Source: Granulimonas faecalis (GTDB lineage: Bacteria > Actinomycetota > Coriobacteriia > Coriobacteriales > Atopobiaceae). From it: 64,000 nt of DNA. Shown piece after piece: positions 7,448 to 27,875 of the stretch. The notes under the pieces were generated by a model. The model saw only the letters and a list, made by a program, of their open reading frames with translations, did no database searches and was not told where the DNA came from. Numbering within the stretch: position 1 is the first letter of the stretch; each line of letters opens with the position of its first letter. The stretch covers positions 408,501-472,500 of the forward strand of contig NZ_BQKC01000001.1 in NCBI RefSeq assembly GCF_022834715.1. Direction: 5' to 3'. The position numbers and the translations under genes were made by a program.

Positions 7448-8374
7448 CTAGATGAGCGTTGATAACGCTCGCATGATTATGTCGACGTCCTTGTTCTCAA
7501 GTTCACGTATTACGTGCAGGTATGTGTCTTGGGTAGTATTCATACTTGCGTGACCAAGGCGCTTGGAAACGCTTGCAATGGAGACGCCTGCATAGAGCAG
7601 GAGCGAGGCGTGGGTATGCCGTAGCCCGTGAACGGAGATGACCGGGACGCCAACCCTGCGGCAATGCCGAGCAAGAACGTTGTTGGCCGTAGAGTTGTAC
7701 ACCTTGCCTTCTACAAAGATGGGCTTGTTTGTAGGAAGGTCTTTGAGTAGGGCAGCGAATTGCATCGTTAACTGCCAGTCGAGCTGGACTTTTCTCACAG
7801 AGGATGCGTTCTTTGTAGGGACAAATCCTCCACCGTTTTTGTAGTCCCAGGTTTTATCGACTGTGAGCGTCTGGCGTGCAAGGTCAAAGTCTTTGGGCGT
7901 GAGCCCCAGGGCCTCGGAGAATCGCAGCCCCGTTTTGGCAACCAGAAGAATCATCCAATCCCAGTCAGGTGAGTCGCCCAGCGCCAGATCCTCGAGGATA
8001 GCGTGGAGTTCGAACTGATTGAGGTACTTCGTTTTCTTTGGGCGTGGCTGCTTGCCTTTGATTATTACTTTGCGAGTAGGGTCGCGCTTGATGAGCCCCT
8101 CGTCTACCGCGTCAAGGACCGCGCCTTTTATCTGGTGGTGGAAATCCATGGTGGTCTGGCGCTCATGTTCTGCTGCATAGCCGTTTATCAGCCGCTGGTA
8201 TTCGATTCTGTCGAGGTCGCACAGCTTGAGAGCGGGTACGAGCTTTCTCAACCAGCTTTGGGTCAGCTCATACTTGCGCATGGTCACGTCCCGGATTGCG
8301 CCCGTCTTGTAGACGCTTACCCACTGGGCAAAGTAGTCACAAAACAGCGTGCTGCCGTTAATTGCTTCGGTCAT
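7448..8374 (-). CDS. Tyrosine recombinase (hsdS-switching integrase)
   Basis: 308 residues from ATG 8374 with a perfect GGAGG site; the longer frame to 8551 reads antisense through the silent hsdS cassette and was rejected. Residues 1-100 are the SAM-like core-binding domain and 115-308 the catalytic domain. Arg 151 (KTGLRFSEAL), His 249 and Arg 252 (HGLRHTH), His 275 (LGH) and nucleophile Tyr 285 (TQDTYLHV) are all in place. It lies between the Mrr gene and the silent hsdS cassette. Enzymes in this position in other type I loci invert or exchange hsdS segments through inverted repeats, which is the likely job here. Confidence 0.92.
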   Translation of the reverse strand: MTEAINGSTLFCDYFAQWVSVYKTGAIRDVTMRKYELTQSWLRKLVPALKLCDLDRIEYQRLINGYAAEHERQTTMDFHHQIKGAVLDAVDEGLIKRDPTRKVIIKGKQPRPKKTKYLNQFELHAILEDLALGDSPDWDWMILLVAKTGLRFSEALGLTPKDFDLARQTLTVDKTWDYKNGGGFVPTKNASSVRKVQLDWQLTMQFAALLKDLPTNKPIFVEGKVYNSTANNVLARHCRRVGVPVISVHGLRHTHASLLLYAGVSIASVSKRLGHASMNTTQDTYLHVIRELENKDVDIIMRALSTLI

Positions 8375-8900
8375 CTCACCCTCCTTCACCAATTCTCTTG
8401 GCTCACGCTGATGAGGGCATGGCTTTGAGTTGAAATTATCCCTAATTGGCGCCTTGGAAGAGTGTTTTTGAGTGCCCAATGCGCTGACCCTTGGGAACAG
8501 CGGAAGCTGGGCGATTTGATTGAGATTAACAGTGGGCGAGACTACAAGCACCTCGAAAATGGAGGCATCCCTGTCTACGGGACGGGAGGGTTGCTAGCCT
8601 ATGTTAACGAAGCCCTTTCCTACAAAAAGGATGCGGTAGGTATAGGACGAAAAGGTACCATTGATCATCCATACAAGCTTAAAGCTCCGTTTTGGACTGT
8701 CGACACCCTTTTTTATGCAGTTCCATCTAGTCAAGCGGACCTAGATTTTGTATTGGGTTTATTTCATAGAATCAATTGGAAGTCAAAAGACGAATCAACA
8801 GGACTTCCGAGCCTTTCAAAGAAAATAATAAATAGTGTGCCTATTATGGCTCCGCTGTTCCAGGAGCAACAGAAGATTGGTAAGGCACTCTCATATTGTG

Positions 8901-9048
8901 ATTCCCTCATCACCCTTCACCGGCGTAAGTTGGAGCACCTCCGGGAGATGAAGAGGGGCCTGCTCCAGAAGATGTTCCCGAAGGACGGTGAGTCGGTCCC
9001 GGAGCTCCGCTTCCCTGGTTTTACTGACCCTTGGGAACAGCGGAAGCT
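8901..9048 (+). repeat. Inverted repeat, silent-cassette arm (pairs with 11727-11874)
   Basis: Runs from the end of recognition domain 1 (DSLITLH) through the central linker into the start of domain 2 (DPWEQRKL). Its reverse complement, with only about half a dozen mismatches, occurs at 11727-11874 in the expressed hsdS. Further copies of the DPWEQRK end lie at 8484 and, inverted, at 12325-12348; a further linker copy is at about 11180-11255. These are natural crossover sites for the recombinase. Confidence 0.85.
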
Positions 9049-9501
9049 GGGCGATTTGATTGAGATTAACAGTGGGCGAGACTACAAGCACCTCGAAAAT
9101 GGAGGCATCCCTGTCTACGGGACGGGAGGGTTGCTAGCCTATGTTAACGAAGCCCTTTCCTACAAAAAGGATGCGGTAGGTATAGGACGAAAAGGTACCA
9201 TTGATCATCCATACAAGCTTAAAGCTCCGTTTTGGACTGTCGACACCCTTTTTTATGCAGTTCCATCTAGTCAAGCGGACCTAGATTTTGTATTGGGTTT
9301 ATTTCATAGAATCAATTGGAAGTCAAAAGACGAATCAACAGGACTTCCGAGCCTTTCAAAGAAAATAATAAATAGTGTGCCTATTATGGCTCCGCTGTTC
9401 CAGGAGCAACAGAAGATTGGTAAGGCACTCTCATATTGTGATTCCCTCATCACCCTTCACCAGCGTAAGGAGCTTGCTTCTATGGTGAACTGCCTGCAAA
9501 T

Positions 9502-9539
9502 AGGGGGCGGTCCGATTAACCCTAATCGGACCGCCCCCT
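9502..9539 (-). terminator. Terminator of the type I RM operon
   Basis: A perfect 17-bp stem (9502-9518 with 9523-9539) and four-base loop, 35 bases beyond the hsdM stop. It also closes the silent cassette from the other side. The T run is poor in both directions, but the stem is very stable. Confidence 0.8.
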
Positions 9540-9573
9540 GATGGGGCCGTACTCGCGCTGCGATGAGCCTTGA

Positions 9574-11157
9574 CTACACTCCGAGGAGTTTCAGCTGCTC
9601 GGCGATGGTCTTCTCAAGCTCGGCTATCTCTCGATCGTCCTGCTCGAGCTTTCGTTGGATCTCCTGCAGGTCGATTTCCGGCTCGGGTTCGAATGTGTCC
9701 ACATACCTCGGGATATTGAGGTTGTAGTCGTTCTCCTTAATCTCCTCGAGCGGTGCCACATGTGCGTATTTGTCGACATCGACCCGGTTTTTGTAGGTCT
9801 CGACGATCTTCTTGATGTGCTCGGGCTCCAGGCGATTCTGATTCTTCGCCTTCTCGAACTCCCGAGATGCATCGATAAACAGCACGTCCTTGGTGTCACG
9901 GTTCTTCTTGAGAACCATGATGATGGTGGGAATTCCTGTGCCGTAGAAGATATTGGCAGGGAGCCCGATGACGGCATCCAAGTAGTTCTTATCGATAATC
10001 TTCTGCCTGATCACGCCCTCTGCTGCGCCACGGAATAGCACGCCGTGGGGCAAGACGATCGCCATGGTGCCCTCGTCTCCAAGATGGTAAAGACTGTGGA
10101 GGATAAAGGCATAGTCGGCTTTTGTCTTAGGGGCGAGCTTGCCATATGGACCAAAGCGCTCGTCCTTCAGCTTAGTCTCGCTGTTGTCCCAATGCGCGGA
10201 ATAAGGGGGGTTGGCCACAACGGCATCAAAGGATGTGTGGGGGTCGTCAATACCACGAGCGTCCTTGCCAAACGGCCAGTCGGTGTCGAGCGTATCGGCA
10301 TTGGACAGGATCATATTGTTATAGGGCACGCCGTGCATCATCAGATTCATACGTGCAAGATTGTATGTGGTGGTGTTCAGCTCCTGCCCAAAGTACTTAA
10401 CTGGTTGGCCCTCGGGAAGCTCCTGGCCAACGGTGAGAAGAAGAGACCCCGACCCCATCGTAGGGTCGTACACCTCAAAGAAATCGTTCGTCCGCTTCTT
10501 GCCTAGGGTGACAATCTTCGACAGAATCTCACTCACCTCGTGGGGAGTGTAGAACTCGCCACCTTTTTTACCGGCCGATGCTGCGAACTGCTTAATCAAG
10601 TACTCGTAAATCGCACCTAGGATATCTTTCCCGTCATCGCTTTTATAATCGATGCTGTCTACGAGCTTGACGATGCGGTTCAGAGACTTCGCTCTCTCGT
10701 TTGTTGAGGACCCCAGCCGCGAATCGCCGAGATTGACGTCGTTGAAGATGCCTCTGAAATCACGCTCCGCGTCCTTGTTGAGCTGGGCGTTCTTGTTGAA
10801 GTTGTCAAACATGTCCTGGTAGTCGCTTGGCACGACCTCGCTGTTGTCGATTCTTGCTACCAGCGATGCCCAGGTGTCGTCCGGTGCGATGGCATATCCG
10901 AGGCTCGAAGAAATGTCTTCAAGGTAGTCGTTCAGGTCGTCACCGCTGGCTTGCTCCAGATAGGCGTCGTTGGGTGTTTGTCCAGGGGCGACGTCGATAA
11001 TGCCATCGTTGACCAGGTAGTTCTGCTGGTGCTCGGACAGATACCGGTAGAACATGAAGGCCAGGATGTAGTTCTTGTACTCGGCTGCGTCCATATTGCC
11101 GCGCAGCTCATTGGCCATGGCCCACAACTTCGAAGAGATCTCCTGCAGGTTGCTCAT
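9574..11157 (-). CDS. hsdM: Type I restriction-modification methyltransferase subunit
   Basis: 527 residues. I start at ATG 11157 (MSNLQEIS) because AAAGGA lies seven bases before it; a TTG seven codons earlier overlaps the hsdS stop. The N-terminal helical domain (AEYKNYILAFMFYRYLSE) precedes an adenine methyltransferase: EFYTPHEVSEIL at 201-212, SAM motif DPTMGSGSLL at 231-240, catalytic NPPY at 316-319. It methylates adenine in the sites chosen by HsdS and forms the M2S core. Last gene of the operon, 13 bases after hsdS. Lower GC than the chromosome, as are all type I genes here. Confidence 0.97.
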   Translation of the reverse strand: MSNLQEISSKLWAMANELRGNMDAAEYKNYILAFMFYRYLSEHQQNYLVNDGIIDVAPGQTPNDAYLEQASGDDLNDYLEDISSSLGYAIAPDDTWASLVARIDNSEVVPSDYQDMFDNFNKNAQLNKDAERDFRGIFNDVNLGDSRLGSSTNERAKSLNRIVKLVDSIDYKSDDGKDILGAIYEYLIKQFAASAGKKGGEFYTPHEVSEILSKIVTLGKKRTNDFFEVYDPTMGSGSLLLTVGQELPEGQPVKYFGQELNTTTYNLARMNLMMHGVPYNNMILSNADTLDTDWPFGKDARGIDDPHTSFDAVVANPPYSAHWDNSETKLKDERFGPYGKLAPKTKADYAFILHSLYHLGDEGTMAIVLPHGVLFRGAAEGVIRQKIIDKNYLDAVIGLPANIFYGTGIPTIIMVLKKNRDTKDVLFIDASREFEKAKNQNRLEPEHIKKIVETYKNRVDVDKYAHVAPLEEIKENDYNLNIPRYVDTFEPEPEIDLQEIQRKLEQDDREIAELEKTIAEQLKLLGV

Positions 11158-11170
11158 GGAGGTTTCCTTT

Positions 11171-12403
11171 CTAGACAAACATCTGCTGAAGCAGGCCTTT
11201 TTTCATTTCTTGCAGGTGCTCCAACTTACGCTGGTGAAGGGTGATGAGGGAGTCGAGACGGGAGAAAAAGTCACCAATCGCCTTTTGTTCCGCAATTTGC
11301 GGTAAAGGGACAGGCGTCTCCATTACCCTCTTTCTTGAAATATTGAATCTTGATATACCTTGTGCGAGAACCTTCATTTTCGAACGGAATAAGCTCGAAC
11401 GGAGCATGTAGGCGAGGTACAACGCATCGAATGAGCCATTCTGCCGGTAGCCGAAGCAGAAGCTGTTTAGGTAGACGTCCTTCTGGTCAGAGAGCCAAAC
11501 TGAAGACATGCCGACGTCTTCCGGAGTCTCAGACGACGTTGTAAAGAGCGTATCCCCCGTCTGCACCAACTGCTGCTTTGTATCTATCTCTATAAGCTCT
11601 AGTCTTTCGGGGTCCACTACTGGATTCTCAAATACGTTGGTATAGGGGATGTAACGTGCGAATCCGTGCCCAAAATCAGAGCTGGATTTACCGCTAAGGC
11701 CAGAGTAGGTCGTTCCGCAATCGCCTAGCTTCCGCTGTTCCCAAGGGTCAGTAAAACCGGGGAAGCGGAGCTCCGGAGCCGACTCCCCGTCCTTCGGGAA
11801 CATCTTCTGGAGCAGGCCCCTCTTCATCTCCCGGAGGTGCTCCAACTTACGCTGGTGAAGGGTGATGAGGGAGTCAATCTTGCTGAAGAACCGTCCGATT
11901 TGGCCCTGTTCGGAGATCTGCGGGACAAGAATTGTTTGGTCGAGGAAATCATCGACAACCAGCTCATTCATCATTGTTCCAAGCTTAGTAGACCGAACCA
12001 GAATTGGCCTCATGGTTGGTTCATGATGTATGTAGTGCTTCCAAAAAGCCTGATTCTGTTCTCCAGTTGGCCTAAGACAAGTGAATCGTGGGGACATAAC
12101 GCCTGTACCCGCATCATTTAGAACAAATCTTCCAAATGCAAACTCTTTGTTTTTATGACCCTCGAAGGCAATGTCTCCTTTTCTCAAGACTTTGTAATTA
12201 CGGAGAGAGTCGTTCGCGGCTCCATTGCCTTCTTCTTTGTATGTCATCGTCGAAATCGAGAGAGTGGACTCTTGACCAAGCCCTTGTTTATTCCGCTCAT
12301 TATTTTTGCGGTATAGGTCACCAAACTTCCGCTGTTCCCAAGGGTCAGTAAAACCGGGAAAGCGGAGCTTTGGAACACTTGGCTTCTTTTCGTCCATTTG
12401 CAT
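11171..12403 (-). CDS. hsdS: Type I specificity subunit, expressed copy
   Basis: 410 residues, full length for a two-domain HsdS. Recognition domain 1 covers about residues 20-180, the central coiled spacer about 180-215 (DSLITLHQRKLEHLREMKRGL), domain 2 about 230-380, and a second coiled spacer ends the protein (KLEHLQEMKKGLLQQMFV). Both domains differ from the silent-cassette domain, so recombination would change the target sequence. Starts at ATG 12403, six bases after the hsdR stop, with GAAGGG upstream. It joins HsdM and HsdR and sets DNA specificity. Confidence 0.95.
   Translation of the reverse strand: MQMDEKKPSVPKLRFPGFTDPWEQRKFGDLYRKNNERNKQGLGQESTLSISTMTYKEEGNGAANDSLRNYKVLRKGDIAFEGHKNKEFAFGRFVLNDAGTGVMSPRFTCLRPTGEQNQAFWKHYIHHEPTMRPILVRSTKLGTMMNELVVDDFLDQTILVPQISEQGQIGRFFSKIDSLITLHQRKLEHLREMKRGLLQKMFPKDGESAPELRFPGFTDPWEQRKLGDCGTTYSGLSGKSSSDFGHGFARYIPYTNVFENPVVDPERLELIEIDTKQQLVQTGDTLFTTSSETPEDVGMSSVWLSDQKDVYLNSFCFGYRQNGSFDALYLAYMLRSSLFRSKMKVLAQGISRFNISRKRVMETPVPLPQIAEQKAIGDFFSRLDSLITLHQRKLEHLQEMKKGLLQQMFV
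11727..11874 (-). repeat. Inverted repeat, expressed-hsdS arm
   Basis: Counterpart of 8901-9048. It covers the central spacer and the first residues of recognition domain 2. A crossover between the two arms would invert about 2.8 kb including hsdM and exchange the second recognition domain of the expressed gene. Confidence 0.85.
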
Positions 12404-12408
12404 CCCTT

Positions 12409-15400
12409 CTACTCCATAACTAGGTCGTCGGCGAGCTCGTAGATCGCCTCTCGCAGGGCATTGCGATACTTGATCTTTGAGAGTGCCTGGACTTCTTCGC
12501 TCTCAGCGATCTGCTTATAGCCTTCGGATGCCTGAGACAATATGAATTTTATCCATCCAGTATCGTCCAGGTCCTGCTGGCCGTAGCGGTGATGGCTGAA
12601 CATCTCGTGCATCTTCGCATTCGGGACAATCTCGGTGATGCCCCACTTGACCCTAAACCGCAGAAAGCGCCTGTCCAGACTCGCGTTGTTGGCATCTTGA
12701 ATAATGGGGCCGCAGTCATCCAGCTTCACGGGATAGTCGATCTTTGCGTCTGCGGGCGGGTACTCCTTGCTCACAATAGCCGCGGCTGCCTTGATGATCT
12801 TTGTCGCATAGGAACGGTCCTCGAGGCCGTTGGCAAACTGGCGGATTTCTTCCTGTGTCGCCATTGCCTCGTCAACCTTGTTCTCATGCACCTGGTTCAT
12901 CAACTGCTCGACCAACTCGGCCAGATAGTCGTAGTTGACTTCGACATCCTTGATGTGTGTCATCTGGAGCTCAAGCTGTTGGATGGGGATGCGTTTCTCT
13001 TTGGCGAGGTGCTCCTTGAGCTCGTTTGCGAGGACAGTGGTGAGCCTTGTCTCCTCATCCGGTGTCATCCCGAGTGCTTCAACGATCTTGTCGGGATCGT
13101 CGTAGTCGAATCCGTCCTCACCGTTCACGGTTGTGTACTGCTTGAGCTTGGCCATGCCGCGGTTGTATTCCCGCAACAGGTCGAGCATGAAGTCCTTTTG
13201 GGCCTCCGATGGCGGGAGCTCGTTGAAGTCGCTTGTCAGATCGCGGAGTTTGTCAACCTTTCCTCGAACCGCCTCGAGCATGTCCTCAAATTCAGGCGCA
13301 GTGATTCCGTCCTCAACGTTTTGCTCACTACGCTGCTCGTCGGTAAGATCGGCCGAGTCTTTGTTGGCGTACACGGCCAAGGCCTCGTTCATGAGCCTCT
13401 CGTTGTGGGCGGGCCAGCGATAGTTGACAATGCGTCCCCACGGCTTTTCCTGTAGGTCGGCAATACGGTTTGTGCGCGAGTACGCCTGGATGAGCCCGGC
13501 TCCTTTGAGCGTTCGGTCGACGTAGAGCGTATTGAGCTCCGGGGCATCGAAGCCGGTCAGGAGTTGGTCCACCACGATAACAAGATCGAGAAAGTTCCCG
13601 TCTTTTGCGGTGCGGTTGAGGCGCGTGGTGAGGTCTTGGGTGTAACTAGAGACATCGGCCATGCCAAAGTTGGTGCCGAATTCCTCGTTGTAGGCCTGGA
13701 TAGCCTCAAAGAGCCCCTTGTTGGTTTCTAGCTGAGTATCGTTGTTCGATGTGTTCTGGCTGAACGTAACCGCTACCTTGAGGGTATCCTTGCCCTCATT
13801 CGCGCGCTCGGCGTTCATACGTTGGAACTCTCGGAAATACTTCATCGCCATGGGGGTGCTGGCCTTGCCGCCACCAACGTGGGTGGTGAGCAGCGCGTTG
13901 TATTTGCCGTCGTTTGAGCGGTTACGCCAGTTGTTAAAGATGTCTTGCACCACCAGGGCTATGTGGTCGTCGTTCTCGTCGTAGAAAGACGGCTCCACGG
14001 CATCGTCCATGTCCTCAGGGGTCATGTTGTCGATCTTTTCCTGGATCTGTTCATCGGACCAATCCGGGTGCTGCTGCCTATAAAAACTAGGGAGGTATTT
14101 CTCTCGCATTTCTTGCTCATTGATAGTGGTCTCAAAGTCCACCTTAAAACCGAGTACGTTTTTGTCCGCGATGGCCTCACGGATCGTATAAGAATGGAGC
14201 AGCTTGCCGAAGATGTCCTCGGTTCGCAGAGACGGGGCGTCGTCGAACATTGGAGTGCCCGTATAGCCGACCCATGCCGCATGCTTGAACGCCTGCTGGA
14301 TGGCCTTGAATGACTCGCCTCCGGTGGAGCGGTGGGCCTCGTCAACGATAAAGACGATGTTCTTATCCGGAGACTTGAACGACTTGCGCTTTACCAGGCG
14401 GTCGAGTTTCTGCACCGAAGTGACGATGATTCCGTTGTCCTTCGACTTGAGTTTGCGGCTCAAATCTCCCGTGTTCTGGGTGTCCTGTACACTCGAGGGC
14501 ATCTCGTCGTCTGCGTCCGGGTCATAGGCGCGATAGTTTTCGCTCGTTTGTTTGGTGAGTGCGATGCGATCGACGAGGAAGACCACCTTGTCGATTTTGG
14601 GCATGCGGCTGGCGAGCCATGCCGTTTTGAAACTCGTGATTGTCTTGCCCGAGCCTGTGGTGTGCCAGATGTAGCCGACCTTGTTCACTCCCAGCTCAAA
14701 GTCGACCCGTTTGAGGCCGTCGATCACGTTCTGTGTCGCATACACCTGGTACGGGCGCATGACCTTGAGGCTTTCCTTGTTCTTAGTGCCGTCAAGAATC
14801 ATGTAATTGGTAGCCATCTGGTGAGCCATGGGAATGGAGAGCATAGAGTCTGCGAACTCTTTCCAATTGCGTACCACTGTGTTGTCGCTTTTGCGCTGCC
14901 AGTTGAAGGCAAAGTCCTTATTGAAGCGGTCTGCGGTGGTGTTGGCCATGTACTTCACGTTATTGGGCGTGATGGCTACAAGAATTTGCAGAGTCGAGAA
15001 GATGTCGCGGTACTGGCCTTCATCAATGTACTGTTCCATCTGATTGAGGGCTTCATTGACATCGTGCGTCTCGGTCTTTTCCTCTATTTGAATCACGGGA
15101 AGCCCGTTGATGAGCAACGTGGTGTCGAAGCGACAGTCTCTTTTGCCGGTTATCTTTGCGGGGCGGCGAATCTGGTTCACCACTTGGTAAACGGTGTCGC
15201 CCGCGCCGATTTGCTTTTGGTCGAACACAGTGAGAAACACGTGGCGGCCGTCATCGAGATCGACTTCGATCTGCGAGACACCGTTCATGCCGTAAAGGAA
15301 CTGACCGGCCTGATATGGGGTCTCCAGGTCGGAAATAATGCGTTTTACCTGGTTAAACTCAACCGTGCTCAGTGGGTTGTCGAGGGTGTCCTGGTTGTGG

Positions 15401-15603
15401 CGCTCGAGTATTTTTTTGAAGTTGTCCCAGAGCTGGTCGGTAGTCTTGATCTCCGGCTCGTACTTCCATCGCTTGGTCTTGGCAACGTAGCTTGCCGGCT
15501 CGCACACAACTCCCCACGGGCTCTCGTCGCCCTCCTGTGGGCTCGCGATGGTTCCATTGCAGAGGTACTGAATAAGATCGTTCTCGAACTGGAGTTCGTT
15601 CAC
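12409..15603 (-). CDS. hsdR: Type I restriction endonuclease subunit R
   Basis: 1064 residues, translated from GTG 15603, two bases after the stop of the half-size hsdS. N-terminal PD-(D/E)xK nuclease: Asp 160 and the E-x-K of IQIEEKTE (Glu 174, Lys 176). Superfamily 2 helicase motor: Walker A HTTGSGKT at about 314-321, DEAH box at 421-424, then GYTGTPMF (motif III), TRLNRTAKDGNFLDLVIVVD and QAYSRTNR (motif VI). It translocates DNA and cleaves unmethylated substrate at a distance when bound to M2S. Length and motif order are normal and no disruption is visible. Confidence 0.97.
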   Translation of the reverse strand: MNELQFENDLIQYLCNGTIASPQEGDESPWGVVCEPASYVAKTKRWKYEPEIKTTDQLWDNFKKILERHNQDTLDNPLSTVEFNQVKRIISDLETPYQAGQFLYGMNGVSQIEVDLDDGRHVFLTVFDQKQIGAGDTVYQVVNQIRRPAKITGKRDCRFDTTLLINGLPVIQIEEKTETHDVNEALNQMEQYIDEGQYRDIFSTLQILVAITPNNVKYMANTTADRFNKDFAFNWQRKSDNTVVRNWKEFADSMLSIPMAHQMATNYMILDGTKNKESLKVMRPYQVYATQNVIDGLKRVDFELGVNKVGYIWHTTGSGKTITSFKTAWLASRMPKIDKVVFLVDRIALTKQTSENYRAYDPDADDEMPSSVQDTQNTGDLSRKLKSKDNGIIVTSVQKLDRLVKRKSFKSPDKNIVFIVDEAHRSTGGESFKAIQQAFKHAAWVGYTGTPMFDDAPSLRTEDIFGKLLHSYTIREAIADKNVLGFKVDFETTINEQEMREKYLPSFYRQQHPDWSDEQIQEKIDNMTPEDMDDAVEPSFYDENDDHIALVVQDIFNNWRNRSNDGKYNALLTTHVGGGKASTPMAMKYFREFQRMNAERANEGKDTLKVAVTFSQNTSNNDTQLETNKGLFEAIQAYNEEFGTNFGMADVSSYTQDLTTRLNRTAKDGNFLDLVIVVDQLLTGFDAPELNTLYVDRTLKGAGLIQAYSRTNRIADLQEKPWGRIVNYRWPAHNERLMNEALAVYANKDSADLTDEQRSEQNVEDGITAPEFEDMLEAVRGKVDKLRDLTSDFNELPPSEAQKDFMLDLLREYNRGMAKLKQYTTVNGEDGFDYDDPDKIVEALGMTPDEETRLTTVLANELKEHLAKEKRIPIQQLELQMTHIKDVEVNYDYLAELVEQLMNQVHENKVDEAMATQEEIRQFANGLEDRSYATKIIKAAAAIVSKEYPPADAKIDYPVKLDDCGPIIQDANNASLDRRFLRFRVKWGITEIVPNAKMHEMFSHHRYGQQDLDDTGWIKFILSQASEGYKQIAESEEVQALSKIKYRNALREAIYELADDLVME

Positions 15604-15605
15604 GG

Positions 15606-16175
15606 CTAATGTGCCCCCTTCATTCGTGCTAGCACAAACTTCGTTTCCAGCATTGCCTGCTGTTTCTTCAGAGACTCCAATTTGAGCTGGTTTCTGTAAA
15701 GCGATCCGATCGTCTTCTGAACTTCGAGTGAGGGGAGACCTGAGATCTCGAGCTCGGACAACTGTCTAACGGTGCTCTTTAGGAGCTTTGATCCCTGCCG
15801 TCCAGCGAGCAACTGGTGTCTGGTGCTGCTGTCCTCGTTAAGCAGGTAGGCGAGGTAATTTGCATCAATCGTGGATGGCGGAGTGATGCGCACGTAGTTT
15901 TGGGTGAAGAGGAAGCCGTCGTGGGGCCGCCCGACCGTCGTCGCCTTCCCGGAGATGAGGCTGAAGACCAGATCGCCCGTCTGCAAGGTAAGCACGTCGT
16001 CATTGGTCTTGATAAACCGTGCGCCATGAGTGGATGAATCCTCGCCGAATAGGTCCGCCTCAAGCTCTTCTTGGCCGTAGAAGTAGTAGGTCGGGGCGTT
16101 GGGGTCCGATGTTTCCTCGATGCGTGATTGCGGCGATCCGCTTTTTAGGCCCGCTAGGCCGGCCAGTCGTCCCAT
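15606..16175 (-). CDS. Half-size HsdS-like protein (single recognition domain)
   Basis: 189 residues from ATG 16175, with AAGAAGGA before it. The core (VLTLQTGDLVFSLISGKATTVG, FLFTQNYVRI, NYLAYLLNE, RQLSELEISGLPSLEVQKTIGSLYRNQLKLESLKKQQ) has the beta-rich recognition domain followed by a helical spacer, as in one half of an HsdS. It shares no close sequence with the two-domain hsdS downstream and lacks the repeats used for switching. It could dimerise to make a separate specificity, or act as an accessory. First gene transcribed from the promoter at 16216. Confidence 0.8.
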   Translation of the reverse strand: MGRLAGLAGLKSGSPQSRIEETSDPNAPTYYFYGQEELEADLFGEDSSTHGARFIKTNDDVLTLQTGDLVFSLISGKATTVGRPHDGFLFTQNYVRITPPSTIDANYLAYLLNEDSSTRHQLLAGRQGSKLLKSTVRQLSELEISGLPSLEVQKTIGSLYRNQLKLESLKKQQAMLETKFVLARMKGAH

Positions 16176-23536: not shown

Positions 23537-23731
23537 TTAGTCGTATACCGGTGTTGATCCATCATTCGGTTTTATGACATCAAAACATTCGGGCGGGTAC
23601 AGGTAGTCCTCCTCAGTTTCGTCGATAATCCGATACCAGCCCTTTTCTATGGACAAAACATCGTAAATCTTATTATTAAGGAGCCCCAGGGGGGAAGACT
23701 CTCCATGGTACTTAACCTGCATCATAACCAC
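23537..23731 (-). CDS. Small acidic protein, possible immunity protein
   Basis: 64 residues (or 62 from the next ATG), no signal peptide or membrane helix. The core GLLNNKIYDVLSIEKGWYRI then DETEEDYLYPPECFDVI looks like a compact beta-strand domain seen in many small proteins of mobile regions in Gram-positive bacteria; I know no established function. It overlaps the gene upstream by ten bases, and the pairing of a basic protein with a tightly linked small acidic one is typical of toxin-immunity or toxin-antitoxin couples. That role is inference. Confidence 0.65.
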   Translation of the reverse strand: MVMMQVKYHGESSPLGLLNNKIYDVLSIEKGWYRIIDETEEDYLYPPECFDVIKPNDGSTPVYD

Positions 23732-24120
23732 CTCTTGACCTTAAACTCACATTTTCCGACACTCGACTCCTGAAACCAGTGGACTTCTGCTGTCATAAAT
23801 CTATTGTCTCTGACAATCGTGCCAAAACCTTTTACATGTTGCCAATTTCTCGCCTTGCCACCGTATCGGCTGGCAAGCCCTTCTGCAACTTGGCGACGAA
23901 GTTTCTTTCTCGTTCCTTTACCGGCGAAAACTTCAACTCCCGAAATGGTGGACCCTTCTGCGAAGTGATACCTCTTCCCTGTCTTGGGGTCCTTCACGTC
24001 ATAGTTCAGCGCCATTGCGCCAAGACTTCTGCCGATTACAAACGGCTGACCTGCAATCGTTTCCGGGAGAGAGCCCCAGGTTCGTCCGAAATCGAGTCCA
24101 TCGCCTCTACCGGTCCCCAT
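23722..24120 (-). CDS. Hypothetical basic protein, possible toxin-like partner
   Basis: 132 residues from ATG 24120 (the longer frame to 24282 is antisense-like and lacks family sequence). Recognisable blocks: YDVKDPKTGKRYHFAEGS, EVFAGKGTRKKLRRQVAEGL, RNWQHVKGFGTIV, AEVHWFQESSVGKCEFKVKRWL. Proteins with this HWFQE-type ending occur in phage and conjugative regions and, as far as I recall, as tips of larger secreted proteins; the fold is unknown to me. It overlaps DUF4417 upstream by 14 bases and the small acidic gene downstream by ten. Confidence 0.65.
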   Translation of the reverse strand: MGTGRGDGLDFGRTWGSLPETIAGQPFVIGRSLGAMALNYDVKDPKTGKRYHFAEGSTISGVEVFAGKGTRKKLRRQVAEGLASRYGGKARNWQHVKGFGTIVRDNRFMTAEVHWFQESSVGKCEFKVKRWL

Positions 24121-24784
24121 TGCGCACCTCCTGCCCGCGCTTGTGAGAGAGAGCAAACTGGCTATCGAAGTGTTTAATCGGAACTCCCGCTTTATGAGCT
24201 GCGATGAATAGCCCGTCTGGAGCGGCGCCGTACACAATGATGGTGGACGGACGAAGCACGTCGACTGTTTTCTCGACCGCAAGTCTGATGTACCTTCTGT
24301 CGTCGCGGTGTTTGCAGCAGCCGACAGTTGACATGGCGATTACGGAATTGCGGGGGAGGCCGTCAAACACCCAGTCAAGGCTGCGCTCGTCCGATACTCG
24401 TACGTTCGGTATCACCTCGACGCCCTCATGCTGCAGCCAGTAAGATATGGTTCTTGATTTGAAGCAGCTCCATTGCTGCATTCCTGCCGGCATATTTCTG
24501 TACATACTAAAGTCAGGCCCAATCACCGCCCGGCAGCGGCGGAAGAGGGGGAGGTAGCGCATTGGGTTCCTCCATACGCACCGGAACTTCACGTCATGCT
24601 CAAAAAAGTGGATACAGGAGTTTTCGAGACCGGTCTTTTGAGCTCGCGCACGAGTGAAGGGGGTGAGGCTTTCGGGGATGAGCCGGCTAGGCATTATAAC
24701 GGGGAGCTCGAGAGGGCCTTCGTAGTCTGCGCCGGTCAAAAGGGATGCGTTGAACACGTCGTATGGGGCAAGATTGCCGTACAA
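24107..24784 (-). CDS. DUF4417 protein
   Basis: 225 residues from TTG 24784 with AAAGGA six bases upstream. Conserved family blocks: IHFFEHDVKFRCVWRNPMRY, AVIGPDFSMYRNMPAGMQQW, GVEVIPNVRVSDERS, VIAMSTVGCC. Members are found on phages, plasmids and integrative elements; no activity has been shown. The 157-base leader before it contains three matching TTCGAA-centred segments able to form alternative stems that include the ribosome site, so translation may be switched. Co-transcribed with the two small downstream genes. Confidence 0.85.
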   Translation of the reverse strand: MYGNLAPYDVFNASLLTGADYEGPLELPVIMPSRLIPESLTPFTRARAQKTGLENSCIHFFEHDVKFRCVWRNPMRYLPLFRRCRAVIGPDFSMYRNMPAGMQQWSCFKSRTISYWLQHEGVEVIPNVRVSDERSLDWVFDGLPRNSVIAMSTVGCCKHRDDRRYIRLAVEKTVDVLRPSTIIVYGAAPDGLFIAAHKAGVPIKHFDSQFALSHKRGQEVRNGDR

Positions 24785-24941
24785 TGCGGTTCCTTTCGAA
24801 TCGTTTGTATAGAGACTGGGGCGTTAGCCCAGCCCGATTCGAAAGTGCGTACAATCGTCTTGTCTAGGGAGCGGTGTACGCCGCTTTCGAATGGGCGCCA
24901 CTTTTTCGGAGGTGGCGCTCTCTTTCTTTTCGTGGTGTTGC
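24785..24941 (-). promoter_or_regulatory. Candidate switching leader RNA of DUF4417
   Basis: Read on the minus strand there are three segments: S1 ATTCGAAAG (24892-24884), S2 CTTTCGAATCG (24845-24835) and S3 CGATTCGAAAG (24803-24793). S1 pairs perfectly with the first nine bases of S2, and the stem is extended inside by GCGTACA/TGTACGC (24881-24875 with 24853-24847). S2 alternatively pairs with S3 over 11 bp, and S3 contains the 5' part of the AAAGGA ribosome site before the TTG start. A small CTGGG..CCCAG hairpin sits in the S2-S3 loop, and a GCGCCAC/GTGGCGC hairpin (24895-24918) leads the region. Confidence 0.6.
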
Positions 24942-25505
24942 TTATAGCCTTAGCGCTCTGCACCACTTTTCTCCCTTCGCTATTGCGGCGCATTGAGTCC
25001 GAGCTGCAGTTTTTGTGACTTGAAAGGACTCGCTAACCTCATCTGGAGTGAGATCGAGTATTTTACTGGCGGGCATCAGAAGCGCCCCTGCAAAGGCGTT
25101 TGCCTGCCATTCAGAGCTTTTGTATGCAGGGATGCTCTTGCTCGCTGCATTTCGTGCGAGAGCCCGCGGTACTCCTTCGTGCTCCAGAAGGTGCCCAACC
25201 TCGTGTGCAATTGTCATGCGCGAGAAGGGGTCGCCATCCACTGCTCCGTCATACACTTCCTCTCGGAGGCGAATAAGGTGCCTGTCGGGATATGTTTCTC
25301 CGAATTTATCGCCTAAATCACTGGTGGAGACTATTTCCGAATCGAAATCGTCATACAGTAAGGGAAGAACGAACTCAAAAAAATCGACTATTGGAAAGGG
25401 CTTGTCGCCTTTGTATCCGACCAGTCTGTGAACAGCATGCGCATCCTTCGTGAGGTCCATTCGACTTTTCGGCGGCACCTCAACTCCGTAGTCATGGGTA
25501 TCCAT
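24942..25505 (-). CDS. ImmA/IrrE-type zinc metallopeptidase
   Basis: 187 residues from ATG 25505, eight bases after AGGAGG. Zinc site HEVGH at residues 101-105 with the downstream SSEWQANAFAGALLMP carrying the third ligand. ImmA peptidases cleave cognate XRE repressors to trigger gene expression of integrative elements or prophages. The start overlaps the end of the XRE gene immediately upstream (stop at 25510), the usual repressor-protease pair. The C-terminal FQVTKTAARTQCAAI also fits the family. Confidence 0.92.
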   Translation of the reverse strand: MDTHDYGVEVPPKSRMDLTKDAHAVHRLVGYKGDKPFPIVDFFEFVLPLLYDDFDSEIVSTSDLGDKFGETYPDRHLIRLREEVYDGAVDGDPFSRMTIAHEVGHLLEHEGVPRALARNAASKSIPAYKSSEWQANAFAGALLMPASKILDLTPDEVSESFQVTKTAARTQCAAIAKGEKWCRALRL

Positions 25506-25509
25506 ACGC

Positions 25510-25866
25510 TTAGTCCTCCTCAAGGATTCCTCTGAGCCGTTTTTTCTGCTCCTCGCTTAAACAGGCGAATTTGCGTGCAAAAGCCACAGCGAGCTGCTGG
25601 TCTTGGCCAGGAAGCTCTTTAATGCGTAAAGAAACCTCATCGCGTGATCGATCCAGGGCGTCTTGAAGCGCTGAAAGTTCATCTGGATCAAGGTTATAGG
25701 TGGCTGCCAAACGGCCTGCAAATTCCTTTGGGGGGTTGCGCCGCCCCGTTTCAATTGAGGAAAGTGTAGATGATGCAATTCCCAGCTTGTCAGCCATGGT
25801 TTTCAGAAGCTCGTCATTGTCAATCCTTAGCCTTCGAAGGTACTTTCCCAACGCTGTCGCTGCCAT
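25510..25866 (-). CDS. XRE-family repressor, partner of ImmA
   Basis: 118 residues from ATG 25866 with AAAGGAG upstream. N-terminal helix-turn-helix: LGKYLRRLRIDNDELLKTMADKLGIASSTLSSIETGRRNPP. The C-terminal half is helical, with AVAFARKFACLSEEQKKRLRGIL. It is expected to repress its own promoter, where a TTACTT-N9-AAGTAA inverted repeat overlaps the -10 element, and to be cleaved by the ImmA protease encoded next. Confidence 0.92.
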   Translation of the reverse strand: MAATALGKYLRRLRIDNDELLKTMADKLGIASSTLSSIETGRRNPPKEFAGRLAATYNLDPDELSALQDALDRSRDEVSLRIKELPGQDQQLAVAFARKFACLSEEQKKRLRGILEED

Positions 25867-27095: not shown

Positions 27096-27875
27096 TTACT
27101 CGATATTTGCCTCGATGATCCGGCAGAGGAACTCGGTAGCGCCATCGCCGCAGGCGCCGTCGTAGTATTCCACGAAGCGCGGGTCTGTCAGATAACCCTG
27201 GGCCAGAGATCGATGCGCCTCAGGGGTGTAGGCGCCTTCTCCCCAGTGCACCTTGATCCATTGGGCGTGCATGCCGGCAACAAGCCTTGACTCAGGTGAG
27301 GCCGGATCGCCTGTGGCCATCGCCACGATCAGGTTGTCCTTGATGCGATGCTCCAGCTCCTCCTTGGCATCCCATGCCGTCTTGCTCATCCCGAGCATGC
27401 GCTCGTTCGCCTCGTCGATGGCCGCATCACCGTAGAGCGAACGGGCCTCTTGGCCGTACTCATTCTCGAAGTCGGCGACCGACTGCTTCTTTATCCGTTC
27501 GAATCGCTCTTTATCATCCATTTTTCCAAAAGCCTCCAATCCCGCCACGGCGATCCTCGCCGCCGCGATGGTCTCGTCCAATTCTTTCCTCTGTCGACAA
27601 AGAAGGGTCAGATGCTCTTGAAGCATGGATGCGAGGTCGAAATCCGACCTGTCGAGCGCGTCCTCGATCGACTCCAGGGGGACGCCGCAAGACCGCAGGA
27701 GCAGGATATGCTGCAGCCTGTGCATGTCGGCAGCGTTGTAGACCCGGTACCCGTTCGCGGCGCGCGCTGGAACAAGCAACCCGATCTGATCGTAGTAGCG
27801 AAGCGTGCGCGAACTCACACCAGCCAGGTCGGCCAGTTCCTTGGTGGTGTACGTTCTGTCCACGGGGACGCCCAT
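27096..27875 (-). CDS. MerR-family regulator with TipAS-type effector domain
   Basis: 259 residues. Residues 8-75 are the MerR DNA-binding domain (YTTKELADLAGVSSRTLRYYDQIGLLVPARAANGYRVY), followed by a dimerisation helix (LQEHLTLLCRQRKELDETIAAARIAV). From about 135 a TipAS antibiotic-recognition fold is recognisable (FENEYGQEARSLYGD, GMHAQWIKVHWGEGAYTPEAHRSLAQGYLTDPRFVEYYD). TipA-type proteins bind thiopeptides or other drugs and activate resistance genes. No efflux gene is adjacent; the truncated GNAT downstream may be a former target. Confidence 0.92.
   Translation of the reverse strand: MGVPVDRTYTTKELADLAGVSSRTLRYYDQIGLLVPARAANGYRVYNAADMHRLQHILLLRSCGVPLESIEDALDRSDFDLASMLQEHLTLLCRQRKELDETIAAARIAVAGLEAFGKMDDKERFERIKKQSVADFENEYGQEARSLYGDAAIDEANERMLGMSKTAWDAKEELEHRIKDNLIVAMATGDPASPESRLVAGMHAQWIKVHWGEGAYTPEAHRSLAQGYLTDPRFVEYYDGACGDGATEFLCRIIEANIE

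Follow-up and report, generated by a model that had tools for sequence, protein, structure and literature searches.

Translational riboswitches and other anti-Shine-Dalgarno (anti-SD) switches are built from two exclusive stems, one of which lies over the ribosome site, and they keep conserved loop letters between variable stems. The same arrangement is found in the element described here, a 157-nucleotide (nt) leader upstream of a DUF4417 gene in a 64,000-nt stretch of the Granulimonas faecalis genome, referred to below as the window. Unlike translational riboswitches, this leader has no counterpart in Rfam and has so far been found before one gene family only. Autogenous leaders of ribosomal protein operons offer a second parallel, being RNAs narrowly tied to one gene that diverge along with the protein family, but DUF4417 is not known to bind RNA.

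The surrounding genes also recall described systems. As in CapH-CapP and ImmR-ImmA, the operon opens with a gene for an XRE helix-turn-helix (HTH) protein and, next to it, an M78 peptidase gene, and these two neighbours are present here in that order. In contrast to those systems, what follows is a structured RNA and DUF4417, then a toxin-like cassette in which no genes of cyclic-oligonucleotide-based antiphage signaling systems (CBASS) or integrative and conjugative elements (ICE) were recognised. The MuF polymorphic toxins of temperate phages (PMC5576092) likewise combine a variable C-terminal domain with a small open reading frame (ORF) behind it; unlike them, the toxin-like gene here has neither MuF nor another known family and carries only a short Gly-rich N-terminus, and no prophage genes were recognised around the locus. 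Taken with the comparisons below, the leader is likely to act in cis as a translational RNA switch for DUF4417 and thereby to control the toxin-like cassette downstream.

Alternative pairings in the leader and their conservation

The leader occupies window positions 24941-24785 on the minus strand, the strand of all leader features given below, and precedes the TTG start of DUF4417 at 24784-24782. The first-pass annotation described three segments based on TTCGAA, the second able to pair with either of the others, and the coordinates bear this out. Segment 1, the anti-anti-SD (ATTCGAAAG, 24892-24884), and segment 2, the anti-SD (CTTTCGAATCG, 24845-24835), form nine perfect Watson-Crick pairs, extended inward by a 7-base-pair (bp) stem between GCGTACA (24881-24875) and TGTACGC (24853-24847). 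Segment 2 can also form 11 perfect pairs with segment 3 (CGATTCGAAAG, 24803-24793), which overlaps the ribosome-binding site; the Shine-Dalgarno-like AAAGGA (24796-24791) begins within segment 3, ahead of the TTG start as proposed, and its first bases are covered by this pairing. The identity of the downstream gene as DUF4417 also holds (PF14386, E 4e-49).

Both states were folded, as that annotation recommended. Because the forced-state energies are -51.1 kcal/mol for pairing 1:2 and -50.0 kcal/mol for 2:3, about 1 kcal/mol apart, the leader is predicted to be close to balanced between the two in the energy model used; the mean pair probabilities of the two states are 0.79 and 0.19. When the 157 nt were shuffled 3000 times with dinucleotide composition preserved, no shuffle produced two exclusive perfect stems, each 9 bp or longer, with segment 3 within the final 25 nt; a perfect stem of 9 bp or more of any kind arose in 59. 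Relative to shuffles, folding reaches z -3.1 for 176 nt of leader and z -4.6 for the part comprising the first two hairpins, SL1 and SL2. No sigma-70-like promoter was found downstream of segment 2 in the window leader.

For comparison, 98 distinct DUF4417 genes were gathered, most of them from Coriobacteriia, and their upstream regions screened for unusual folding, and 26 coriobacterial leaders (20 non-redundant) were assembled. The closest DUF4417 relatives found share ~40-44% identity with the window protein, and plain alignment therefore cannot compare the leaders. Peptide patterns revealed no close relatives of the window DUF4417 in genome contigs or viral contigs, and a wide DUF4417 alignment was too variable for scanning. 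What recurs is a layout: a strong SL1 (26 of 26 leaders); 0-9 nt further on, a long SL2 formed by pairing 1:2 around a loop; and, another 34-80 nt on, a start codon bearing the third segment. The order SL1, SL2, ribosome site is common to all 26, and the window has it between its M78 gene and DUF4417.

The letters that fill this layout differ widely. Segments 1, 2 and 3 read GGTGCCATA, TATGGCACC and GGTGCCAT in leader L037; GGCATA, TATGCC and GGGCATAATG in L055; GGCCGTA, TATGGCCTCC and GGAGGTCATAATCATG in L040; and GGATCGGAG, GGCTCCAATCT and AGATTGGAGCT in L050. Two subgroups can be aligned internally: subgroup A (the window, L072, L082, L146, L055, L149, L040 and L075) and subgroup B (L039, L029, L043, L042, L024 and L063). 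Seven subgroup A leaders keep a constant 23 nt from segment 1 to the UAUG of segment 2; the window has 21 nt, and since its loop is shorter it lies two bases out of register in the subgroup alignment. Within the SL2 loop, the motif CTCCCTAGACAAGACG (24871-24856) is letter-identical in the window and L072, with TGACAAGAAGCAT or TGACAAAGAACAT in others and (G/C)AGTAT in subgroup B. A search of 397 genomes with the 16-base loop pattern, two mismatches allowed, returned mostly chance matches. In viral contigs, pattern matches to the leader motif were present, none of them supported by the covariance model.

Conservation of the pairings was assessed by a swap test, in which the pairing energy of each segment with its own partner was set against that with partners exchanged between the 20 non-redundant leaders (50,000 permutations). 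Own partners pair far better for SL1 (z -11.8), 1:2 (z -13.3) and segment 2 with the ribosome site (z -7.3), in each case more extreme than every permutation, whereas the control pairings do not (segment 2 with the spacer, z +1.6; segment 1 with the ribosome site, z -1.0; the SL1 3' arm with the ribosome site, z +2.2). Some start codons in this test had been picked by eye; with starts chosen automatically by Shine-Dalgarno strength, segment 2 with the ribosome site gives z -6.9, or z -6.0 with the window excluded, and the segment 1 control z -1.8.

Covariation is seen within the subgroups. In subgroup B, compensatory two-sided changes occur at 9 of 13 SL1 pairs and 2 of 12 SL2 pairs, with a covariation score that none of 500 shuffles reached and that is lost when the partner is slid. 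In subgroup A, 2 of 7 SL2 pairs have changed on both sides and the others alternate between A-U and G-U or between C-G and U-G, a pattern that favours selection on RNA over DNA. RNAalifold found no pairs in a first cross-class alignment, because the helix register differs between leaders. Covarying changes, whose absence among homologous leaders would have counted against a switch, are thus present: both alternative pairings are kept with different letters while the controls are null. Together with the swap test, they support the proposed geometry of a translational riboswitch or protein-controlled switch. In sum, the sequence comparison supports both pairings and their conservation with changed letters, as well as the placement over the ribosome site and the element's link with DUF4417.

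That link was also probed with covariance models. A model of subgroup A that includes the window (R1) gave five matches over 140 genomes of the family, all five directly upstream of DUF4417, and a model built without the window (R2) gave one match over 223 genomes of the class, also before DUF4417. At E values up to 1, neither the window region nor any of nine relatives matched an Rfam model, the T-box included. The leader family is outside Rfam and so far undescribed.

Several results weigh against a conserved switch in the window or temper its support. R2 misses the window leader within the 64 kb at E up to 10, scoring it at 5.8 bits at its own position when filters are disabled; because of this failure we regard the window leader as a divergent member of the family, placed there by its layout, its gene order, the pattern of pairing and the 16-base loop match to L072. 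The 2:3 pairing is weak in L080, L063, L144 and L072. Finally, because good folding was a criterion for choosing the leaders, the z values for SL1 and 1:2 are inflated, and that for segment 2 with the ribosome site is the more independent value.

Operation of the proposed switch and competing explanations

During transcription, pairing 1:2 (SL2) may form first, leaving the ribosome site free (ON). A factor that disfavours SL2, or the retention of segment 1 in a local hairpin, would let segment 2 close on segment 3 and hide the ribosome site (OFF). A possible hairpin of this kind, AGCGG cgtaca CCGCT (24885-24870), would vie for the inner part of segment 1 in the window; its p value is 0.12 in the window alone, and 21 leaders combined, which are not all independent, give a Fisher chi2 of 92.6 on 42 degrees of freedom. 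The bases just 3' of segment 1 can often fold back on segment 1, which would make this a four-strand switch, on weaker evidence than the pairings above. The balance is probably set by a trans-acting factor on SL1 and the SL2 loop, toward closure or the reverse; we infer both this factor and the default state.

The DUF4417 protein itself is the likeliest such factor, ahead of a metabolite and then of others, because the RNA is found only beside the DUF4417 family and diverges along with it; autogenous control is nonetheless put forward tentatively. The AlphaFold2 model of DUF4417 (mean predicted local distance difference test score, pLDDT, 87) resembles a TIM barrel, and its structure matches in the PDB are weak TIM barrels only. 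In a viral structure library, several phage queuine tRNA-ribosyltransferase-like proteins are among the better matches (best E 1.7e-3). A relationship to the superfamily of tRNA-guanine transglycosylases (TGT) and DpdA is not supported at the sequence level, profile comparison with one bacterial TGT being negative. An alignment of 13 DUF4417 sequences shows no variation at D64, D91, S93 and R129. Phage DUF4417 also occurs fused to a ParB-CTPase fold (PMC12704722).

A metabolite riboswitch, in which SL1 and the SL2 loop form a small-molecule aptamer and the ligand stabilises SL2 and frees the ribosome site, would share the anti-SD/anti-anti-SD geometry and would explain the constant-size loop with conserved letters and the hexaloop ending in AA in ~10 of 26 SL1 hairpins. 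Riboswitches usually control several pathway genes, however, whereas R1 and R2 find this element only before one gene family, its loop letters differ strongly between subgroups, and Rfam does not recognise it; we regard this explanation as unlikely.

Leader-peptide attenuation, in which the choice of stem would depend on a ribosome engaged on a short ORF within SL2, is suggested by four subgroup A leaders (L082, L146, L055 and L149), where an ATG in segment 1 opens the similar short frames MRSCDKKHYATS, MRSSDKKHYAIS and MPIPDKEHYAIS. No such ORF exists in the window, L024, L039, L029, L043, L050 or L008, and the window and several relatives lack the short ORF, complete with a start codon and a ribosome site, that is typical of Erm-type attenuators, which makes this account very improbable.

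The first-pass annotation offered three palindromic operator boxes for a DNA-binding protein as its alternative. TTCGAA is indeed palindromic, and an XRE gene whose product could bind it, as could another regulator, lies in the same cassette. The relatives' segments, however, are not palindromic and keep the order direct-inverted-direct, the third overlying the ribosome site; their stems retain G-U pairs; and of the six genomic copies of ATTCGAAAG the three outside the window leader are scattered singly. An operator is accordingly disfavoured, and we give it very little credence. Ordinary processing or termination hairpins behind the M78 gene, complementary to the ribosome site by chance, would fit the closeness of SL1 to the M78 stop codon in many loci and its terminator-like look on the plus strand, but the coding strand has no U-run after SL1 and the 2:3 pairing is conserved with clean controls, so this explanation is the least credible of all.

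The gene cassette and other features of the locus

SL1, the loop motif and the surrounding gene cassette are additions to the first-pass annotation. In the window, SL1 is the hairpin GAGCGCCAC..GTGGCGCCC (24920-24893), and a third predicted hairpin, GGGCTGGGC taac GCCCCAGTC (24835-24812), lies between segments 2 and 3. A tRNA-like reading of TTCGAAT was rejected, since no tRNA was found and relatives do not conserve these letters. Two further leaders, L164 (G130:C1:407000-412000) and L165 (G350:C105), have a different layout, in which an upstream TTGGCTCCT or TGGCTCCT can pair with AGGAGCCATC at the start; they are perhaps another subtype.

The cassette (23537-25866, minus strand) is compact, has a G+C content of ~53%, below most of the window, and recurs in similar order in many Coriobacteriia. 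All of its genes lie on the minus strand. The first encodes the XRE-type HTH regulator (25510-25866; Pfam HTH_31, E 1.8e-11) and the second an ImmA/IrrE-like M78 metallopeptidase (24942-25523; Pfam Peptidase_M78, E 1.5e-9). The PADLOC capH (E 1.6e-7) and capP (E 9e-13) models match this pair weakly. The XRE/M78 pair probably adds control at the level of transcription, by analogy with CapH/CapP and ImmR/ImmA. The M78 stop codon lies ~22 nt upstream of SL1 in the window, within the SL1 5' arm in L040 and L072, and a few bases ahead of SL1 in several other loci, and a terminating ribosome could therefore touch SL1. Among the 98 DUF4417 loci, with leader presence judged by reading folds, an M78 gene lies upstream in 20, of which 19 have the leader (all except L142); the leader is clear in 8 of the 78 loci without one.

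Behind DUF4417 (24107-24784) lie a toxin-like gene (23722-24117) and a small gene, possibly an immunity gene (23537-23731; PHROG 34144 of unknown function, E 3e-21). The N-terminus of the toxin-like protein, MGTGRGDGLDFGRTWGS, resembles the short Gly-rich MGGGxGxGLxFGxTxGSG conserved in several relatives at the same place, while the C-terminal part varies by locus. The toxin-like gene matched no Pfam family above cut-off, and the downstream genes gave no Pfam or PHROG match to MuF; one toxin-like variant has a sub-threshold match to PBECR1, a phage nuclease domain. The small gene accompanies the toxin-like gene in L058, L059, L061, L151 and L087. From this organisation, we infer a polymorphic toxin/immunity cassette.

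The same genome carries a second DUF4417 cassette (L008/L168, G000:C1:146500-151500). Its leader contains SL1, SL2 and a pairing that covers the ribosome site, and the toxin-like gene downstream (MGEDNTGNTFPTSG...) differs from that in the window. Beside the window cassette no prophage genes were recognised, and no direct repeats were found flanking it. Elsewhere, G+C drops to 50-54% in window positions 8001-16000, against ~70% in most of the window, which suggests another acquired region, and a MerR-type regulator with a TipAS antibiotic-recognition domain is encoded at 27096-27875 on the minus strand.

Implications for DUF4417 and Coriobacteriia

A regulatory element is now attached to DUF4417, a family of which almost nothing is known. 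The letters of this element have diverged nearly wholly while its three-way pairing is kept, marking a kind of switch that sequence-based RNA surveys can miss. Around it lies a recurrent Coriobacteriia cassette with apparently two layers of control. As a more speculative possibility, an RNA switch of a new class, operated by the DUF4417 protein itself, might guard an undescribed Coriobacteriia cassette, in the order XRE, M78, RNA, DUF4417, variable toxin and immunity gene, with transcriptional control through M78 cutting XRE, for example after DNA damage, and translational control through the leader. The function of DUF4417 becomes directly testable via its leader.
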